Positions 1-50,054 of a stretch of 64,000 bases of DNA are shown here, one piece after another. The stretch's first letter is position 1. The number at the start of each line of letters is the position of its first letter. The notes beneath the pieces were generated by a model that was not told where the DNA came from, made no database searches, and was given only the letters and a program-made list of their open reading frames with translations. Source of the stretch: Oceanihabitans sp. IOP_32 (GTDB lineage Bacteria > Bacteroidota > Bacteroidia > Flavobacteriales > Flavobacteriaceae); assembly GCF_009498295.1 (NCBI RefSeq), contig NZ_CP040813.1, positions 1,805,001 through 1,869,000 on the forward strand, read 5' to 3'. A program made the translations under genes and the position numbers.

Positions 1-194
1 ACCGCTTCGCTTTTAGACGTTAGAACCAAGGCTAGATTCTAACTAGCTGATTGGCAGAAGTGAATTGAATAATAAAACATCTCATCGCACTCTTTATAAT
101 TGTTTTATATAAACAAGGTATCATTTTAAAAGACGCGTCAAGTTCTTTATTTAAAAGAGATTAACGATTATAAAACGTTTTTAGTCGGACACTA
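1..194 (-). repeat. MITE-like repeat family A, copy 1 (cut by window edge)
   Basis: This stretch is the reverse complement of two other intergenic stretches at 19355-19570 and 42422-42638. Its right end (185-194) reads TCGGACACTA, the terminal inverted repeat of the family in opposite orientation. The other end lies outside the window. Shared internal blocks include the reverse complement of CTAAAAGCGAAGCG near position 1 and a stretch matching GATGAGATGTTTTATTA and CAATTCACTTCTGCCAATCAG of copy 2. It contains no open reading frame of note. Confidence 0.75.
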
Positions 195-351
195 ATGTTT
201 AAAAATAGTAAATTGATTAAATTTTGAGGAAAACGCTTTTTTTCTTTTGCTATATTTTATAATTAATTGTCCTTTATATGTCATAAACCTATAAATTAGT
301 AACTTATGATGACATCTTTGTGCCGAAACGACAATAGATATTTATTTTTAT

Positions 352-1590: not shown

Positions 1591-3489
1591 ATGAGTGATG
1601 CATTAAAGCACGAATGTGGAATAGCAGTAATTAGACTTTTAAAACCACTAGAATATTATAAAGAAAAATATGGAAGTGCATTTTATGGAGTGAATAAAAT
1701 GTATTTAATGATGGAAAAGCAGCATAACCGCGGTCAAGATGGCGCTGGTTTTGCAAGCATTAAGCTAGATACGAAGCCTGGCGAACGCTATATAAGCCGT
1801 GTGCGCTCTATAGCCCAACAACCCATTCAAGATATTTTTTCACAAATTAACCAACGTATTAATAAAGAGTTTGTTGCGCATCCGGAGTATGTTGATGATG
1901 TGGCTGCGCAAAAAAAGAATATACCATATATTGGCGAAGTGCTTTTAGGGCACGTCCGTTATGGTACATTTGGAAAAAATAGTGTGGAAAGTGTACATCC
2001 CTTTTTAAGGCAAAACAATTGGATGCACAGAAACTTAATAATGGCTGGTAACTTTAATATGACAAACGTTAAAGAGTTATTTAGCAGTTTGATAGATTTA
2101 GGGCAACACCCTAAAGAATATACCGATACTATTACCATTATGGAGAAAATCGGGCATTTTTTAGATGATGCTGTTAGTAAAATTTACAAAGATTTAAAGA
2201 AAGAGGGTTTTTCCAAAAAAGAAGCCTCGCCACTAATTGAAAAGCGACTTAATATCGCCAAAATATTACGACGTGCTGCCAAAAATTGGGATGGTGGTTA
2301 TGCCATGGCTGGTCTTGTTGGGCATGGCGATGCTTTTGTTTTAAGGGATCCAGCAGGGATTCGTCCTACGTATTACTACAAAGACGACGAAGTGGTGGTT
2401 GTAGCTTCAGAGCGACCAGTAATACAGACCGTTTTTAATGTGAATTTTGAAGATGTTAAGGAATTAAAACCTGGACATGCTTTAATTACCAAAAAATCTG
2501 GTAAGGTTAGTATAAAAAAAATATTGGAACCTTTAGAGAAAAAGTCCTGCTCTTTCGAACGTATTTATTTCTCTCGTGGAAGTGATGCTCAAATATATCA
2601 AGAACGTAAAATGTTAGGTAAATTATTAATGCCTAAAGTTCTTAAGGCTATTGATTGTGATACAAAAAACACGGTCTTTTCGTACATTCCAAATACTGCC
2701 GAATCGTCGTTTTTCGGGATGATAGAAACTGTTGAAGACTATTTAAACGAAAAGAAAACAGAAGCTATTTTAAATGGAGGTGGAAAAATGTCTGCCGAGA
2801 AAGTTACCAGAATTTTAGAAGAACGACCACGAATAGAGAAAATTGCCATTAAAGATGTAAAATTACGAACTTTTATTACAGAAGATAGTAGTAGAGACGA
2901 TTTGGTAGCTCATGTTTACGATGTAACCTATGGTGTTATAAAGCCCACCGATAATTTGGTAATTATAGACGATAGTATTGTGCGCGGTACAACACTTGAA
3001 AAGAGTATTCTTAAAATGCTAGATCGACTGCATCCTAAAAAAATAATTGTAGTGTCCTCGGCGCCTCAAATTCGCTACCCAGATTGTTATGGCATTGATA
3101 TGGCAAATCTTGAAACTTTAATAGCCTTTAAATCGGCATTAGCACTATTAAAGGATAGAGGTATGTATCATATAGTAGAAGAGGTTTATAACAAATGTTT
3201 AAGTCAAACCGCGTTAGACGATAAAGATGTAAAGAATTTTGTTAAAGAAATATACGATCCTTTTACAGATGAAGAGATTTCAGATAAAGCTTCAGAGTTG
3301 TTAAGTGATAGTACCTTAAAGGCCGAAGTAAAAATTATTTTTCAATCTGTTGAAAATTTACACAAAGCCTGTCCAGAACACATTGGCGACTGGTATTTTA
3401 CTGGGAATTACCCAACAGCTGGAGGAAATAGAGTAGTAAATAGAGCTTTTATAAACTTTTACGAGGGTAATAAAGAACGTGCGTATTAA
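1591..3489 (+). CDS. Long PurF-like amidophosphoribosyltransferase
   Basis: The protein has 632 residues. It joins an N-terminal class II glutamine amidotransferase domain (N-terminal nucleophile) to a C-terminal phosphoribosyltransferase domain, as in PurF, which makes 5-phosphoribosylamine from PRPP and glutamine. The likely nucleophile is Cys9 in KHECGIAVI, so an 8-residue propeptide would have to be removed. HVRYGTFG at about 121-128 matches the glutamine-binding H-x-R-Y-x-T motif. The PRPP loop VIIDDSIVRGTT lies at about 457-468. Canonical PurF is about 470-510 residues; this protein has extra segments around residues 85-110 and 190-230 and a C-terminal extension. It may be a second, divergent PurF paralogue and not the main purine enzyme, so no symbol is given. 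The PfkB kinase is the upstream neighbour. Confidence 0.85.
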   Translation: MSDALKHECGIAVIRLLKPLEYYKEKYGSAFYGVNKMYLMMEKQHNRGQDGAGFASIKLDTKPGERYISRVRSIAQQPIQDIFSQINQRINKEFVAHPEYVDDVAAQKKNIPYIGEVLLGHVRYGTFGKNSVESVHPFLRQNNWMHRNLIMAGNFNMTNVKELFSSLIDLGQHPKEYTDTITIMEKIGHFLDDAVSKIYKDLKKEGFSKKEASPLIEKRLNIAKILRRAAKNWDGGYAMAGLVGHGDAFVLRDPAGIRPTYYYKDDEVVVVASERPVIQTVFNVNFEDVKELKPGHALITKKSGKVSIKKILEPLEKKSCSFERIYFSRGSDAQIYQERKMLGKLLMPKVLKAIDCDTKNTVFSYIPNTAESSFFGMIETVEDYLNEKKTEAILNGGGKMSAEKVTRILEERPRIEKIAIKDVKLRTFITEDSSRDDLVAHVYDVTYGVIKPTDNLVIIDDSIVRGTTLEKSILKMLDRLHPKKIIVVSSAPQIRYPDCYGIDMANLETLIAFKSALALLKDRGMYHIVEEVYNKCLSQTALDDKDVKNFVKEIYDPFTDEEISDKASELLSDSTLKAEVKIIFQSVENLHKACPEHIGDWYFTGNYPTAGGNRVVNRAFINFYEGNKERAY

Positions 3490-3646
3490 AATTTTAGAAC
3501 CCTTTTCGGCGTAATTATTGGGATATGCGGCGTTTTGACGAATAAAGAAGTAGTTTATCTAAAAAATATTTTTTTTCTACAAATTACATCTACTTTAGTA
3601 AAACCATAACATAAGTAGGTTAAGTTCATGGTAGATTTGGGGTAAG

Positions 3647-3672
3647 AAGGTGAACGAAAGTTCACCTTTTTC
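3647..3672 (+). terminator. Rho-independent terminator with GAAA tetraloop
   Basis: AAGGTGAAC (3647-3655), loop GAAA, then GTTCACCTT (3660-3668) form a perfect 9-bp stem followed by T's. It terminates the PurF-like transcript or a small transcript starting in the gap. Confidence 0.8.
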
Positions 3673-3782
3673 ATTTTAACGAAAGTTTTAAAACTAAGTT
3701 GGTTTTTAGAGTTATAATATCTATCTAAAGGTTTTGCCTAACTTTAAACAACTCAAATATAATCCCTATAGCAACGTGATGA

Positions 3783-3814
3783 AACAAAAAAGCAAACCCT
3801 TTTCAGGATTTGCT
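3783..3814 (-). terminator. Rho-independent terminator of superoxide dismutase
   Basis: On the minus strand AGCAAATCC and GGGTTTGCT pair (plus coordinates 3806-3814 and 3791-3799) with one G-U pair, followed by a run of T's (A-run at 3786-3791 on plus). Confidence 0.75.
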
Positions 3815-3839
3815 TTGGTATGTATTAAATAAAAAACGC

Positions 3840-4448
3840 TTATTTCGCTTCGGCGTAACGTCTTTCTACCTCATTCCAGTTAATTACGTTAAAAAAGGCA
3901 TTAATATAATCTGGACGACGGTTTTGGTAATTCAGGTAATAAGCGTGCTCCCAAACATCTAAACCTAAAATGGGTACACCGCCACAACCTACTCCTGGCA
4001 TTAATGGGTTGTCTTGATTTGGTGTCGAACAAATTTTAACCGTTCCATCTTTATGCACACACAGCCAAGCCCAACCAGAGCCAAAGCGTGTGGCCGCAGC
4101 TTTACTAAATGCAGTAATAAACTCGTCTTTAGAGCCGTAAGCCGCTTCTATAGCATCTTTTAACTCTCCAGACAAATACCCTCTATCTTCTGGGTTCATA
4201 ACGGTCCAAAACAAATTGTGATTGTAATATCCACCACCATTGTTTCTTACGGCTGTATTATCCATGTCCAAATTTGTTAGAATATCTTCAATAGATTTCC
4301 CTTCTAAATCTGTGCCTTTAATAGCATTATTTAAGTTGTTTGTATAACCTTGATGGTGCTTGGTATGGTGTATTTCCATAGTACGAGCATCGATATGAGG
4401 CTCTAAAGCATCGTAAGCATATTGTAATTTCGGTAATTCGAAAGCCAT
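3840..4448 (-). CDS. sodA: Superoxide dismutase, Mn or cambialistic type
   Basis: This 202-residue enzyme converts superoxide to oxygen and hydrogen peroxide. It has no signal peptide, so it is cytoplasmic. The four metal ligands of the Fe/Mn family are visible: His27 in MEIHHTKHH, His77 in [11 protein letters not shown], and Asp164 and His168 in [10 protein letters not shown]. The glycine-rich GGGYYNH stretch and Gln145 in TPNQDNPLM are usual in Mn-type enzymes, whereas Fe-type enzymes usually place the active-site Gln near the second ligand; Mn or cambialistic use is therefore likely. It is a single-gene unit with its own -7 element at 4479-4486 and a terminator at 3783-3814. Confidence 0.93.
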
Positions 4449-4478
4449 AGTTTTATTTTTTTTAAATTAATAGTATTC

Positions 4479-4486
4479 CAAATTTA
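4479..4486 (-). promoter_or_regulatory. Predicted -7 element upstream of sodA
   Basis: On the minus strand this reads TAAATTTG, a match to the Bacteroidota -7 consensus TAnnTTTG, about 30 bases upstream of the start codon. No TTG lies at ideal -33 spacing. Confidence 0.45.
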
Positions 4487-4566
4487 CGGATAAAACACAT
4501 CAATTAAAAATAATATATACTTATGAAATGATTGATAGTTTTTATATTGTGTTTAAATTTGTCTTT

Positions 4567-7500
4567 ATGCAGACTAAACATCCTTTTACTATCTATAATG
4601 CTTCTGCCGGAAGTGGAAAAACCTACACTCTAGTAAAGGCCTATTTAAAAATCCTTTTTAATTCGGATAATCCCTATCTTTTTAAAAACATTTTGGCCAT
4701 CACATTTACTAATAAAGCGGTTGCCGAAATGAAAGATCGTATTATTGAAATGTTAAAAGCCTTTTCAGATAAAAGTGTTTTAGAGTCTGAAGACAACAGT
4801 ATGTTTTATGACATTTGTGAAGACATCAACATGGCACCTGAAGTGCTTTTTGAGAAGTCAGGAAAACTGTTAAACACCATTTTGCACAATTATGCCGCTT
4901 TTGATATTAGCACGATTGATGGTTTTACACATAAACTGATACGCACTTTTGCCTACGATTTGAAAATACCCTTAAATTTCGAAGTCGAATTAGACCAGGA
5001 TTCCCTTTTAAATCAAGCCGTAGACCGTTTAATTGCTAAAGCGGGAACAGACACAGCCTTAACGCGAGTTTTAGTCGATTTTGCGATTGAAAAGGCAGAC
5101 GATGATAAAAGCTGGGATGTCGCTCTCGATTTTAATAAAATTGCAAAATTATTGGTTAACGAGAACGATAAGCCGTTTATTGAAAGCTTAAAGGGTAAAA
5201 GTTTAAAAGATTTTAGTACACTTAAATCACTGTTACAGAAAGAAATCACTCTGGTTGAAAATACATTAACCGAAGGTGCAGAAGGCGTTTTAACCTTAAT
5301 CGAAGAGGCGGGCTTAGCGCCAAACGATTTCTCCAGAGGCTCGCTACCAAAGCATTTTAAAAATCTGGCTATTAAAAATTACGGAATTAAGTTTGACTTG
5401 GTTTGGCAAATCGATCTTTTAGAGGGTAATGGGCTTTACCCGAAACGTGTTAGTGAAGAGGTTGCAGCTATTATTGATAGTATTCAGCCACAGCTCGCCA
5501 AGGCTTTTTCTACCACAAAAAACGCTGTTTTTCATATTAAATTTTTAAAAGCGTTTTATAAAAATGTTACCCCACTTTCTGTTTTAAATGCCATAAATAT
5601 GGAATTAAACGCCTTAAAAGCAGAACAGAATAAAATGCTAATTTCAGAGTTTAATTCTATAATTAGCAAAGAGATAAAAGACCAGCCTACGCCGTTTATA
5701 TACGAACGCATCGGAGAAAAATTTAATCATTATTTTATTGATGAGTTTCAAGACACCTCAAAAATGCAATGGGAGAATTTAATTCCGCTTATAGAAAATG
5801 CGCTCGCTTCCCAAAATGGCAGCGCCATGATTGTTGGCGATGCTAAACAAGCTATTTACCGCTGGCGTGGTGGCAAAGCAGAACAGTTTATAGATTTGTT
5901 TGATCAAAAAACACAACCGTTTCATTGTAAACAAGAGGTTAAAACGCTAGAGGAGAATTATAGGAGTTATAAGGATATTGTAGATTTTAATAATGGCTTT
6001 TTTAAGTTCGTATCACATCAAGTTTTTACCGCCGAAGCTTATAAAACGCTTTACGAAAACGCGCACCAAAACAGCACGAAAACAGAAACTGGCTATGTGT
6101 CGTTAAACTTTTTAGAAATTGAAAAAGATGAAGATAGGGATGAGGTATTTTCGCAATACACTCTAGAAGCCATTAGACAGTGTTTAGAAAACGGTTTCGA
6201 TCTGGCAGACATTTGTATTTTAGTGCGTAAGAAAAAAGACGAAAAAGCTTTAGCTAAATTTCTAGGTACTCAAAAAGATATCAAAATAATTTCTGCTGAT
6301 GGTTTATTGTTAAAAAACGCGCCCGAAGTTAATTTTATAAATAATGTTTTAGCACTTTTAGTTCAGCCAAACAACAACGAAACAAAAATGGCGGTTTTAG
6401 AACATCTAACAACGCTGTTTAATATTGAAAATAAACACGAGTTTTTTACAAATCACATTCAATTAGCAGTGCCAGAACTTTTTAAAAGCTTCGAAGTTTT
6501 TAATATCTATTTAAGTAGTGCAGCCCTATTACAGCTGCCACTTTACGACTTAGCAGAAACTGTAGTGAGAAGTTTTAACTTAGTCGAAAAATCTAATGCT
6601 TATATTCAATTTTATTTAGATGTCGTTTTAGATTTTTCTCAGAAAAAAGGCTCTGATGTTTCCGGGTTTTTAGAGTATTTCGATAAGAAACAGGAAAATT
6701 TAAGTGTCGTTTCGCCACAAGGTCAAAACGCCGTCCAGATTATGACCATCCACAAATCTAAAGGCTTGGAATTTCCTGTGGTTATTTTTCCTTATGCCGA
6801 TTTAAATATTTACGAAGATATTGAACCTAAAGAGTGGTTTGCAACCAATCAAGAAAAATATAATGGCTTTTCTTATGCACTTTTAAATTACAATAAAGAT
6901 TTTGAGTTTTATGGAGACGAAGGCTTGCGTATTTTTAAAACCCACACCGCAGAACAAGAGTTAGATAGCATTAATTTACTTTATGTAACTTTAACAAGAG
7001 CTATAGAGCAATTGCATGTAATTACTACGAAAGACATCTCTTCAAAAGGCGAAGTTAATACAAAAAGATATTCTGGATTATTTATTGAATATTTAAAGCG
7101 TATTAACATCTGGAAAGATTCAGAATTAACGTATAGTTTTGGCAATGCAAAAAGAACGTTTAAAAAAGCAACTATAAAAGACAAGACTCAAATACAGCAA
7201 CAATTTATATCCACAGCAAAAGAAATACATCATATAAAAGTGGTTACAAAATCGGGTTTACTCTGGGATACCAGTCAACAAGACGCCATCGAGAAAGGAA
7301 ATCTTATACATGATATCATGTCTAAAATTGAGATAAGCGACGATGTCGATGCAGCAGTGAACGAGTTTTTAGTGGCATCTTCTATAAATAAAGAACAGGC
7401 CGAAATGTTACAAGAAAGTATACATAGAATTGTTAATCATCCACAATTAAAAAACTATTACAGTCCAATAGGTGCGGTGTATAACGAACGCGATATCATC

Positions 7501-9065: not shown

Positions 9066-10451
9066 ATGAAAAATCTTAGCAGATTATTGTTCGCTATGTT
9101 GCTAGTACTCGGTTTTAGCAACGTAAACGCACAAGACGAAAACAATCCATGGCAAATTACCATTGGAGTTAACGCTGTAGATGCCTATCCAAACGGTGAT
9201 GGTGGTTTATTTAGCGAAACTATTTTTGACGAATATTTTAACGCTGAAGATCACTGGAACATTCTACCTTCGTTATCTACCATTACAGTATCTAGATATT
9301 TAGGAGATGGTTTCTCTCTTGGTGTTACAGGATCTCTTAACAAAATCGATAAGTGGGGAGATAGTAGTAAAGGCCCAGATGTAACTAATACGGTAGACGA
9401 TTTGTCTTACTATGGTTTAGATGGTACAGTTAAATACAGCTTTAGAGATATACTTAACACCAAAACTTTAGATCCGTACTTAGGTGCAGGTGGTGGTTAC
9501 ACTTGGATTGATGAAATTGGTGCTGGTACTTTAAATGGTACTTTAGGTTTAAATGTTTGGTTTAACGATAACATTGCCTTAACCCTTCAAACAGGTTACA
9601 AGCACGCTTTCGAAGATTACTTAGATTCTCACTTCCAACATTCGGCTGGTATTTCTATCAAATTTGGTGGAAAAGATACAGATGGCGATGGCATCTATGA
9701 TAAAGATGATGAGTGTCCAGACGTTCCTGGTTTAGCTGAGTTTAACGGTTGTCCAGACACCGATGGTGATGGTATTCCAGATCACTTAGATGATTGTCCA
9801 GATGTTGCTGGTTTAGCTGAGTTTAACGGTTGTCCTGATACCGATGGAGATGGTATTCCAGATCATTTAGATGAGTGTCCTACAGTGTTTGGTTTAAAAG
9901 CCTTAAACGGTTGTCCTGATGCTGATGGTGACGGTGTTCCAGATCATTTAGATAAATGTCCTAACGAAGCAGGTCCTGCAGCTAACAACGGTTGCCCATG
10001 GCCAGATAGAGATGGTGATGGTGTTCCAGATAAGGATGATAACTGTCCAGATGTAAAAGGTACTGTTGCTAACAACGGATGTCCAGAAGTATCTGAGGCT
10101 GTTCAAAAAACACTTAACGAGTACGCTAAAACGATTTTATTTGATACCGGTAAATCTTCAATCAAGGCCGAGTCGGCTCAGGTTTTAAACGATATTACTG
10201 CAATCTTAAAAGAGTATACTAATGCTAAGTTTACCGTTGAAGGACATACAGATAGTACGGGTAGTGCAAAATTAAATCAAACATTATCAGAAGCTAGAGC
10301 TCTTTCTGTGAAAGAATACCTAGTAAATAATGGTATTGATGAATTTAGATTATCTGCGCTTGGATATGGAAAAGATAGACCTATCGACACTAACAAAACT
10401 AGAAAAGGTAGAGCTAATAACAGACGTGTTGAAATTAACTTAGTAAAGTAA
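9066..10451 (+). CDS. OmpA family outer membrane protein with thrombospondin type 3 repeats
   Basis: This is a 461-residue major outer membrane protein. Residues 1-22 form a signal peptide ending NVNA before QDEN. A beta-barrel domain of about 180 residues follows. Residues 204-346 hold five calcium-binding thrombospondin type 3 repeats with DxDGDGxxDxxDxCP signatures. The C-terminal OmpA domain (about 355-461) has [18 protein letters not shown] and the NNRRVEI end, which bind peptidoglycan. It is monocistronic, with its own promoter and a strong terminator. The repeats are nearly identical at DNA level around 9724-9760 and 9802-9838, so the repeat number could vary by recombination. Confidence 0.92.
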
Positions 10452-14734: not shown

Positions 14735-15041
14735 AATTAACGGAATTATAGAGAAGCTAAGGTACTTAAAATTAATGAGTTAGTCAAGTGGTGTTTTTGT
14801 TATGAGGATAAGCTAAATAAACTGTAAAGAAGGGTTTGCCCTAGAAGAATAATACCAATTTAATTTTGAAATGCCGTATTGTTAATTTGGCATAAAGGCT
14901 CAAAATAAACACTTCTAAAAAATACAATAGATAGCTTTTTAAAACTAATTTTTTTAAAAATTATGTCAGAGCTTATAGGTCGTTTATAAACAGAATATCC
15001 TGGTGTAGAACTCAATTTATGGCTTTAGAGAATTAGACTTT
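14735..15041. other. Intergenic region with repeat family C copy
   Basis: These 307 bp separate two minus-strand genes and hold one copy of the palindromic family C repeat (14851-14894). I see no other gene or clear terminator. Confidence 0.6.
14851..14894 (+). repeat. Small palindromic repeat family C, copy 1
   Basis: This 44-bp unit differs at only three positions from the unit at 49957-50000. Its ends are inverted repeats: ATACCAATTTAA on the left and TTAATTTGGCAT on the right. A diverged copy is at 44418-44460. Confidence 0.7.
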
Positions 15042-19178: not shown

Positions 19179-19354
19179 AGGATTTTACTAAAACATATAC
19201 TTTGCTCACTCAAGTTATATCAAACTTTAAAAGATAAATTAACTCTCGAAATTGCATTTTGAAATATGTTCATAGAGGCACCATGGCTTGTAGTAGCAGT
19301 CATATTTACAACAATGCTTCCAAACGAATTGATTTCTTATTAGGTTCATATCAT

Positions 19355-19570
19355 TTGTGTCCGACAAAAACGTTTTAGCATCATCAATTTCTTTAAAATA
19401 AAGAACTATACACCTCTTTTAAAATGACACTTTATTTTTCTAAAACGTTTATAACGCGTTCGATGAGATGTTTTATTAATCAATTCACTTCTGCCAATCA
19501 GTTAGTTATAATCTAGTCTTGGTTCTAATGTCTAAAAGCGAAGCGTTCTTATGTCTTTTATCGGACATTA
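19355..19570 (+). repeat. MITE-like repeat family A, copy 2
   Basis: This 216-bp element begins TTGTGTCCGAC and ends TCGGACATTA, giving terminal inverted repeats around TGTCCGA. It is homologous along its length to copy 1 (reverse complement of 1-194) and, most clearly over the right third, to copy 3 (42422-42638), including CTAAAAGCGAAGCG and TCTTATGTCTTT near the right end. It carries no coding capacity. It fills most of the 436-bp gap between the BNR-protein start and the P1 peptidase stop. Confidence 0.8.
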
Positions 19571-19583
19571 ATATATTTACATA

Positions 19584-42406: not shown

Positions 42407-42418
42407 ATCATAAACAAA
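42407..42418 (+). repeat. Direct repeat flanking MITE-like copy 3 (left)
   Basis: The 12 bases ATCATAAACAAA occur here and again at 42639-42650, on the two sides of the element, and look like a target-site duplication. Three extra bases (CAC/ACT edge) separate it from the inverted repeat. Confidence 0.65.
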
Positions 42419-42421
42419 CAC

Positions 42422-42638
42422 TAGTGTCCGATTAAAAATATTATAATGCTGTCAATCCTTTTAAAATTAAGAGCTTTGCACGTTTTTTAAAATGTCACCT
42501 TGCTTATTTGAAATAATTATTAAGATTTAAAGGAGCTATTTTGTTAATTAAAGCACTTCTGTTTATCAGTTAGTTAGAATCAAGTCTTGGTTCTTATGTC
42601 TATTAGCGAAGCGGTCTTATGTCTTTTGTCGGACATTA
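42422..42638 (+). repeat. MITE-like repeat family A, copy 3
   Basis: This 217-bp element starts TAGTGTCCGA and ends TCGGACATTA, which are inverted repeats of each other apart from one base. The right third matches copy 2 closely (CACTTCTG, CAGTTAGTTA, AGTCTTGGTTCT, AGCGAAGCG, TCTTATGTCTTTTGTCGGAC); the middle is more diverged. It has no coding capacity. It sits between nrdA and the terminator at 42648-42685, so nrdBA transcripts probably read through it. Confidence 0.8.
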
Positions 42639-42650
42639 ATCATAAACAAA
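42639..42650 (+). repeat. Direct repeat flanking MITE-like copy 3 (right)
   Basis: ATCATAAACAAA is identical to 42407-42418. It is the second half of the presumed target-site duplication. Confidence 0.65.
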
Positions 42651-49950: not shown

Positions 49951-49956
49951 GAAAAT

Positions 49957-50000
49957 AATACCAATGTAATTTTGAAATGTCGTATTGTTAATTTGGTATA
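49957..50000 (+). repeat. Small palindromic repeat family C, copy 2
   Basis: It is 44 bp long and differs from 14851-14894 at three positions. The arms ATACCAATGTAA and TTAATTTGGTAT are near-perfect inverted repeats. Confidence 0.7.
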
Positions 50001-50054
50001 ATACCATGCGGGCCAGTGCTATAGTAATGTATCTTATCAAGTAATTTTTTAAAA

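Follow-up and report, generated by a model that had tools for sequence, protein, structure and literature searches.

The three homologous intergenic stretches found in the window (the whole stretch of 64,000 nucleotides from Oceanihabitans sp. IOP_32 that was analysed) are members of a MITE family that was very probably moved in trans by an insertion sequence (IS) of the IS4 family. The family comprises dozens of copies with fixed ends and 9-bp target duplications, which lie at AT-rich intergenic sites and contain no gene, and autonomous elements in related bacteria share the type of ends and the duplication length. Mobility of the MITE itself is what we infer from these sequence features.

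The three copies in the window

The initial annotation had proposed three homologous, non-coding stretches of about 217 bp with inverted ends around TGTCCGA. All three are present (Table 1), with full-length identities to copy 1 of 87% (copy 2) and 79% (copy 3). Their inverted ends are real, but the boundaries had been placed 3 bases too far in on each side: the true ends, CAYTARTGTCCGAY...RTCGGACATTAATG, comprise more than TGTCCGA, and the true length of the element is about 223 bp. The terminal inverted repeats are CACTAGTGTCCGATTAAAA and CATTAATGTCCGACAAAAG. Perfect 9-bp target duplications were found at copies 1 and 3, that of copy 1 reading ATTTTTAAA (9/9 positions identical in the flank comparison). 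Copy 2, under whose position (19355-19570) the family had been listed, is homologous but diverged; it is nearest to the second subfamily, and its flanks agree at 5/9 positions, with no clear target duplication.

Table 1. Features of the MITE family in the 64-kb window.
Feature	Position in window	Strand	Remarks
MITE copy 1, second subfamily	1..197	-	genome 1804975-1805197; locus L010
Right end of MITE copy 1 and 26 more bases	before window start	-	alignment coordinates
Target duplication at left end of copy 1	198..206	.	flank comparison; partner copy before window
MITE copy 2, diverged	19352..19573	+	locus L048; 1 mismatch in each end
Right-end block of copy 2, AGCGAAGCGTTCT	19537..19549	+	block search
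Target duplication ATAAACAAA left of copy 3	42410..42418	.	flank comparison
MITE copy 3, main subfamily	42419..42641	+	locus L019; 99% identity to consensus
Right-end block of copy 3, AGCGAAGCGGTCT, mini-hairpin core GCGAAGC	42605..42617	+	block search
Target duplication ATAAACAAA right of copy 3	42642..42650	.	flank comparison

Two other kinds of repeat were noted in the window: a 48-base repeat in two copies (14848-14895 and 49954-50001; 94% identical and 35 kb apart), and 81-base coding repeats at 9674-10084 within the ORF 9066-10451, which by eye are of the DxDGDG type.

Copy number, ends and target duplications

The genome of Oceanihabitans sp. IOP_32 consists of one contig of 3.48 Mb and carries at least 47 dispersed copies of the MITE. 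A genome search yielded 40 scored matches from 88 first-look candidates, and a search with the end pattern added eight loci (L069-L073, L075, L076 and the undelimited L107) as well as a solo right end (L074). With up to three mismatches, this pattern occurred at 90 genome sites, compared with 4 for a reversed control. A script using the ends CAYTARTGTCCGAY...RTCGGACATTAATG delimited 44 of 48 loci (all except L044, L069, L073, and L107), and the length of 42 of these 44 copies was 219-228 bp, the other two measuring 243 bp (L075) and 432 bp (L071).

The 9-bp AT-rich duplications flanking the delimited copies agreed at 8 or 9 positions in 41/44 cases, the exceptions being L029 (7 matching positions), L047 (4), and L048 (5). 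Perfect duplications were present at 25/44 copies, whereas 300 re-pairings of the flanks gave 0.2 on average and never more than 2, and the mean 9-bp flank identity was 0.93 vs. 0.52 for flanks from different copies. When lengths from 4 to 15 were compared over the 44 copies, nothing comparable to the 9-bp duplication was seen at 4-8 or 10-15. The majority sequence of the targets is the AT-rich ATTTAAAAT. A lack of further genomic copies and variation of the ends had been named at the outset as observations that would speak against the family; the copy number given above contradicts the former, and the latter was tested for and not seen.

Coding content and subfamilies

The description of the elements as non-coding was borne out: when ORFs of at least 90 aa were picked greedily, 0/44 delimited copies overlapped a picked ORF by more than 30 bases. 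Stop-free runs within the copies averaged 33.2 aa, below the 43.3 aa of shuffled copies, and the longest measured 59 aa.

A reading of the repeat as a conserved gene for a non-coding RNA, or as a regulatory element that multiplied otherwise than by transposition, is very unlikely. In its favour, just 7/200 shuffles of the plus strand of copy 3 fold at least as well as the real sequence (z -2.13), and strong conservation across genera is seen in one part of the element. However, this fold pairs the two inverted ends, which is expected for any such element, the fold of the minus strand is unremarkable (z -0.48), and target duplications accompany nearly all delimited copies (41/44). The orientation of these copies relative to their neighbours (16 +/+, 10 -/-, 9 +/-, 8 -/+, and 1 open) revealed no clear rule either. 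No Rfam match at the gathering score was found within the window, and with the folds being unconvincing the RNA-gene reading was rejected. The intergenic location, the multiple copies and the hairpin motif would also suit palindromic repeats of the REP/BIME type, which a Y1 (RAYT) transposase moves; such an identity is nevertheless extremely unlikely, as the MITE has inverted ends that are long and duplicates 9 bp of its target, features that to our knowledge are lacking in REP elements.

A main subfamily contains 27 of the 42 aligned copies, with >0.93 identity to the consensus and a mean pairwise identity of 0.968. The second subfamily consists of L009-L013 (0.935) and includes copy 1 of the window (L010), and the remaining aligned copies are more diverged. 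L026 and L032 are identical in sequence and located at different sites. The spread of the MITE in this genome, in at least two subfamilies, was fairly recent, with no sign that it is continuing.

Several loci also contain other repetitive structures. At L106, which was found by the block search, positions 3045-5037 (genome ~1220044-1222036) hold a 172-bp unit, made of a partial MITE with one right-end block, that is repeated 11.6 times in tandem. A 212-base insert within the MITE copy of L071 (2382-2593) is a second dispersed repeat, which is 87% identical to positions 277-462 of the window, beside MITE copy 1, and 81% identical to part of L042. Another insert, in the MITE copy of L073 (~2031-2181), has ends of the type TATAATGTCG / CGACATTATA; it is related to sequences in L107 and L046 and perhaps belongs to a third small element family. 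Inside the MITE copy of L069 lies an IS3-family element (positions 1481-2953, genome 3282480-3283952) with an apparent GTCT duplication.

IS4-family insertion sequences in related genomes

The initial annotation had attributed mobilisation to an "unknown transposase", and this putative partner can be assigned to the IS4 family with good confidence. The annotation had foreseen neither the likely IS4-family partner, nor that it was not found in the genome of Oceanihabitans sp. IOP_32, nor the spread of the MITE over many genera. Relatives carry insertion sequences of 1.3-1.5 kb (1316-1461 bp) that have like ends and 9-bp duplications and encode a transposase of the IS4 family. The exact end pattern was present in 9 of 299 sampled genomes of the family Flavobacteriaceae, including that of Oceanihabitans sp. 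IOP_32. The IS of genome G103 (L097/L110) is 1383 bp long and has an intact gene for a 398-aa transposase and a 9/9 duplication (ATAAAATAT), that of G141 (L096/L112) has a gene with one stop codon and an 8/9 duplication, that of G177 (L090/L113) has an incomplete gene and no clear duplication, and similar IS with 9/9 duplications are present in G072 and G271. The MITE ends agree with the IS of these five genomes over ~14-19 bases; beyond ~20 bases, 7/9 MITE or IS subterminal regions are by eye not alike.

The transposase scored 214.9 bits against the NCBIfam IS4 model NF033592 (cut-off 115) and 91.3 bits against PF01609 (DDE_Tnp_1; cut-off 23), and also matched DUF4372; no PDB chain matched it by sequence at E 0.001. 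Its translation contains by eye a YREK-like stretch, YKHRWQIETMFKRLK, which may by its spacing correspond to the YREK motif. A generic search for inverted ends with a 9-bp duplication (threshold 8 of 9) was successful at 12/15 transposase loci, with 9/9 matching positions in 11 and 8/9 in one; in a control with re-paired flanks, any pair was found in 8/60 cases and the lowest observed score (19) was reached in 1/60. Most IS ends read CAnnnnTGTCC (CANTnnTGTCC), exceptions being L120 (TAGTGCTGG) and L134; together with the 9-bp duplications this agrees with the IS4 family, in which ends start with 5'-CA and duplications measure ~10 bp. Plasmids yielded distant transposase relatives only (122 records, all <60% identity). 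In G305:C50, two deleted IS4 copies (L123 and L139) are located ~3 kb apart and share a flanking sequence, ATTTACAAA, which lies to the right of one and to the left of the other; recombination or composite transposition would leave such a pattern.

The IS4Sa subgroup has ends of the form CA------T, duplications of 8-10 bp, and a size of 1150-1750 bp (PMC2266710). With CAYTARTGT ends, a 9-bp duplication and 1316-1461 bp, the partner IS resembles this subgroup in ends, size, and duplication length. The MITE differs from the IS4 family in its lack of a transposase gene and its length of about 223 bp.

Neither a PF01609 match nor an IS4-protein match was obtained in the genome of Oceanihabitans sp. 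IOP_32, where the MITE copies therefore look orphaned; the same PF01609 search gave matches in 9/14 control genomes. Among the end sites of this genome that were looked over, the sole facing end pair at IS distance with a gene between was that of L069 (3282480-3283952). It was rejected as the parent since the gene belongs to the inserted IS3-family element, the pair thus being a MITE copy split by that element.

Host range and co-occurrence with the transposase

A sequence model of the MITE was built from 13 copies and applied with strict filters and at most 7 scored matches per genome. Matches at E 1e-6 or better were found in 24/299 genomes of the family, and 14/299 contained full-length relatives, defined as matches extending from model position ≤4 to ≥215 by a criterion that was set after inspection of the table. 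Of 38 relatives from other genomes, 34 were delimited (L227, at a contig edge, wrongly), and duplications with 8 or 9 of 9 matching positions were present in 18/34, whereas 500 re-pairings gave 0.7 on average and at most 4. In G013, such duplications flanked 15/18 distinct copies. A contig scan that left out the Oceanihabitans sp. IOP_32 genome detected one MITE-like copy each in Polaribacter sp. IC066 and P. filamentus, with no parent IS at either locus. At L102 (G013:C15, 463.2-464.0 kb), three MITE copies are arranged head to tail with a 253-base spacing, and neighbours apparently share the 9-bp sequence ATTCATAAT.

The transposase was detected in 23/299 genomes at E 1e-20. It was present in 7/14 genomes with a full-length MITE (Fisher p 1.5e-5) and in 9/24 model-matched genomes (p 1.2e-5), p-values that are somewhat too good because G103 and G306, both in the overlap, share one genus. 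Conversely, the transposase was absent from 7/14 full-length MITE genomes and a full-length MITE from 16/23 transposase genomes. The lack of the transposase in half of the genomes with a full-length MITE fits orphaned families, yet it limits the evidence from co-occurrence.

The same observation would also be in keeping with MITE ends that merely resemble IS4 ends and a mover from another transposase family that also produces 9-bp duplications: half of the full-length MITE genomes, that of Oceanihabitans sp. IOP_32 included, have no IS4-protein match, and the homology between the MITE interior and the IS is marginal (see below). We consider such a mover unlikely, as the ends agree over ~14-19 bases with IS4 elements of five genomes, the duplication length agrees too, MITE and IS4 transposase co-occur above chance, and no non-IS4 insertion sequence with these ends was encountered among the facing end pairs found.

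Origin of the interior and mode of movement

Positions ~70-90 of the MITE consensus hold AAATGACACCTTGCTT, similar to the sequence around the IS stop codon (in G177, for instance, TTTTAATGACCCCCTTGCTATT). A profile of the IS tail matched one Polaribacter copy with 7.2 bits, above the maximum of 5.2 among 960 shuffled decoys, whereas all other MITE copies stayed below the best decoy. In the reverse direction, a MITE profile matched the IS of G141 at the stop-codon region with 9.0 bits vs. 7.8 in 1000 decoys, the other IS scoring ≤1.8. When 30 MITE-IS pairs were aligned, most were non-significant and many were matched by >50/200 shuffles. The lowest counts were 1/200 shuffles for the main copy of Oceanihabitans sp. 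IOP_32 against the IS of G103, though with the alignment in mid-gene, away from the gene end, and 2/200 for Polaribacter against both G141 and G177, at the gene end. The apparent interior homology between MITE and IS is thus marginal. Descent of the MITE from the IS by internal deletion is possible, and the middle of the MITE may keep a remnant of the transposase gene end.

Elements of the IS4 family transpose by a cut-and-paste mechanism. For an IS4-driven MITE we infer that the IS transposase would recognise the CAYTARTGTCCGAY ends, excise the MITE, and insert it into AT-rich 9-bp targets (ATTTAAAAT), which would be duplicated in the process. The MITE family is probably old within its bacterial family. 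As the transposase is no longer found in Oceanihabitans sp. IOP_32, the copies in this genome are at present probably immobile.

The right-end block

Just inside the right end lies a block, AGCGNAGCGG-TCTTNNN. Across genera, in a set of 20 copies (13 genomes plus the two Polaribacter), this block, there AGCGAAGCGGTCTT, matches the left end in conservation and surpasses the right end. With a uniform background, the mean information per position was 1.60 bits for the block, 1.48 for the left end, and 1.23 for the right end, and the best 15-base stretches of block and left end reached 1.54 vs. 1.53 bits; with AT-rich background weights the block had 1.70 vs. 1.44 bits for the left end and exceeded every other stretch. 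The copies had been found and delimited with their ends and with a model that included the block, which favours ends and block alike.

The 13-mer AGCGMAGCGGTCT was found in 67/299 genomes, compared with 12 for a reversed control counted by hand. It occurred in five or more copies (up to 65) in 14 genomes, six of which (G065, G091, G095, G150, G194, and G239) lacked a full-length match to the MITE. Among 247 genomes sampled across the phylum, more than three copies of AGCGNAGCGGTCT were present only within the own family (G000, G140, and G172). In genomes without a full-length MITE the block resides mostly in intergenic-looking sequence, although a few hits look coding, and blocks without MITE ends are often found among heptamer units TCTTNNN or their reverse (e.g., L172-L191). 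Solo blocks sometimes occur in tandem with a 23- or 30-base spacing. Like the block, the TAACTGA heptamer repeats are intergenic, have a 7-nt period, and occur in some Bacteroidetes (PMC4679880), but TAACTGA is a fixed heptamer whereas the block here consists of degenerate TCTTNNN units around AGCGNAGCGG.

The core of the block, GCGNAGC, is identical to the sequence of the GNA-loop DNA mini-hairpin, and all four bases occur at N. The d(GCGNAGC) mini-hairpin is treated as a synthetic and structural motif of very high stability, for which at least two G-C pairs are stated as necessary (PMC4686876). Variants of the block with an inner T-A pair, e.g., GTGAAAC, have one G-C pair, fall outside this rule (PMC4686876) and therefore argue against a hairpin. 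Outside G073, whose 64 T-A copies were excluded as probably one lineage, the inner stem pair among the rows listed was C-G in 70 cases, T-G in 9, T-A in 6, and C-A in 1 (Fisher p 7e-5; counted by hand over the rows up to the first of G201, so that the other G201 rows and those of G103, G306, G172, G065, G194, and G095 are not included, and with copies within one genome not being independent). This pairing suggests a putative hairpin, albeit with few independent events and with the less stable T-A variants.

We know of no requirement for such a hairpin in IS4 transposition, so that the block may be cargo, a site for a host factor, or a passenger from host intergenic repeats. Tentatively, and with considerable doubt, the MITE could be regarded as a vehicle for a functional module, the block being a signal peculiar to this bacterial family that would form a GNA-loop mini-hairpin when its DNA is single-stranded or when it is transcribed into RNA. 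On this speculative account, taken as a whole, the block would be kept as strictly as the ends recognised by the transposase because it serves the host or the element, for example as the binding site of a host protein or other factor that enhances transposition, or in the termination or processing of transcripts. Its distribution over the genomes of the bacterial family would then be due to IS4-driven spread, tandem amplification, and solo copies.

Comparison with known elements and significance

MITECca01 of Cardinium is a gene-less element of ~240 bp that is mostly intergenic, has many copies and derives from an IS982-family element, and an eroded relative of it retains a piece of the transposase gene from the 3' end (PMC9769881). 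It thus shares with the MITE described here the size class, the lack of a gene, the intergenic location, and the multicopy state, but belongs to another IS family and is reported, with its partner still present, from one strain only (PMC9769881), whereas the present MITE is spread over many genera and its partner was not found in Oceanihabitans sp. IOP_32. BrickBuilt of Porphyromonas gingivalis is likewise a MITE of the Bacteroidota, always intergenic and with short repeats inside; it differs in its 23-nt tandem minisatellite core, its restriction to one species, and its measured promoter activity (PMC4596501). In the listed titles and abstracts of the literature on flavobacterial or Polaribacter MITEs, the IS4 family, heptanucleotide repeats, mini-hairpins, and the block sequence, no description of the present family was found.

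The family appears to be ordinary in its mechanism, widely spread, and orphaned in Oceanihabitans sp. IOP_32. With exact ends, a target rule, a likely IS4 partner, and a host range, an anonymous repeat becomes a defined MITE family, and within it the block equals the left end in conservation and is present in multiple copies in several genomes without a full-length MITE.
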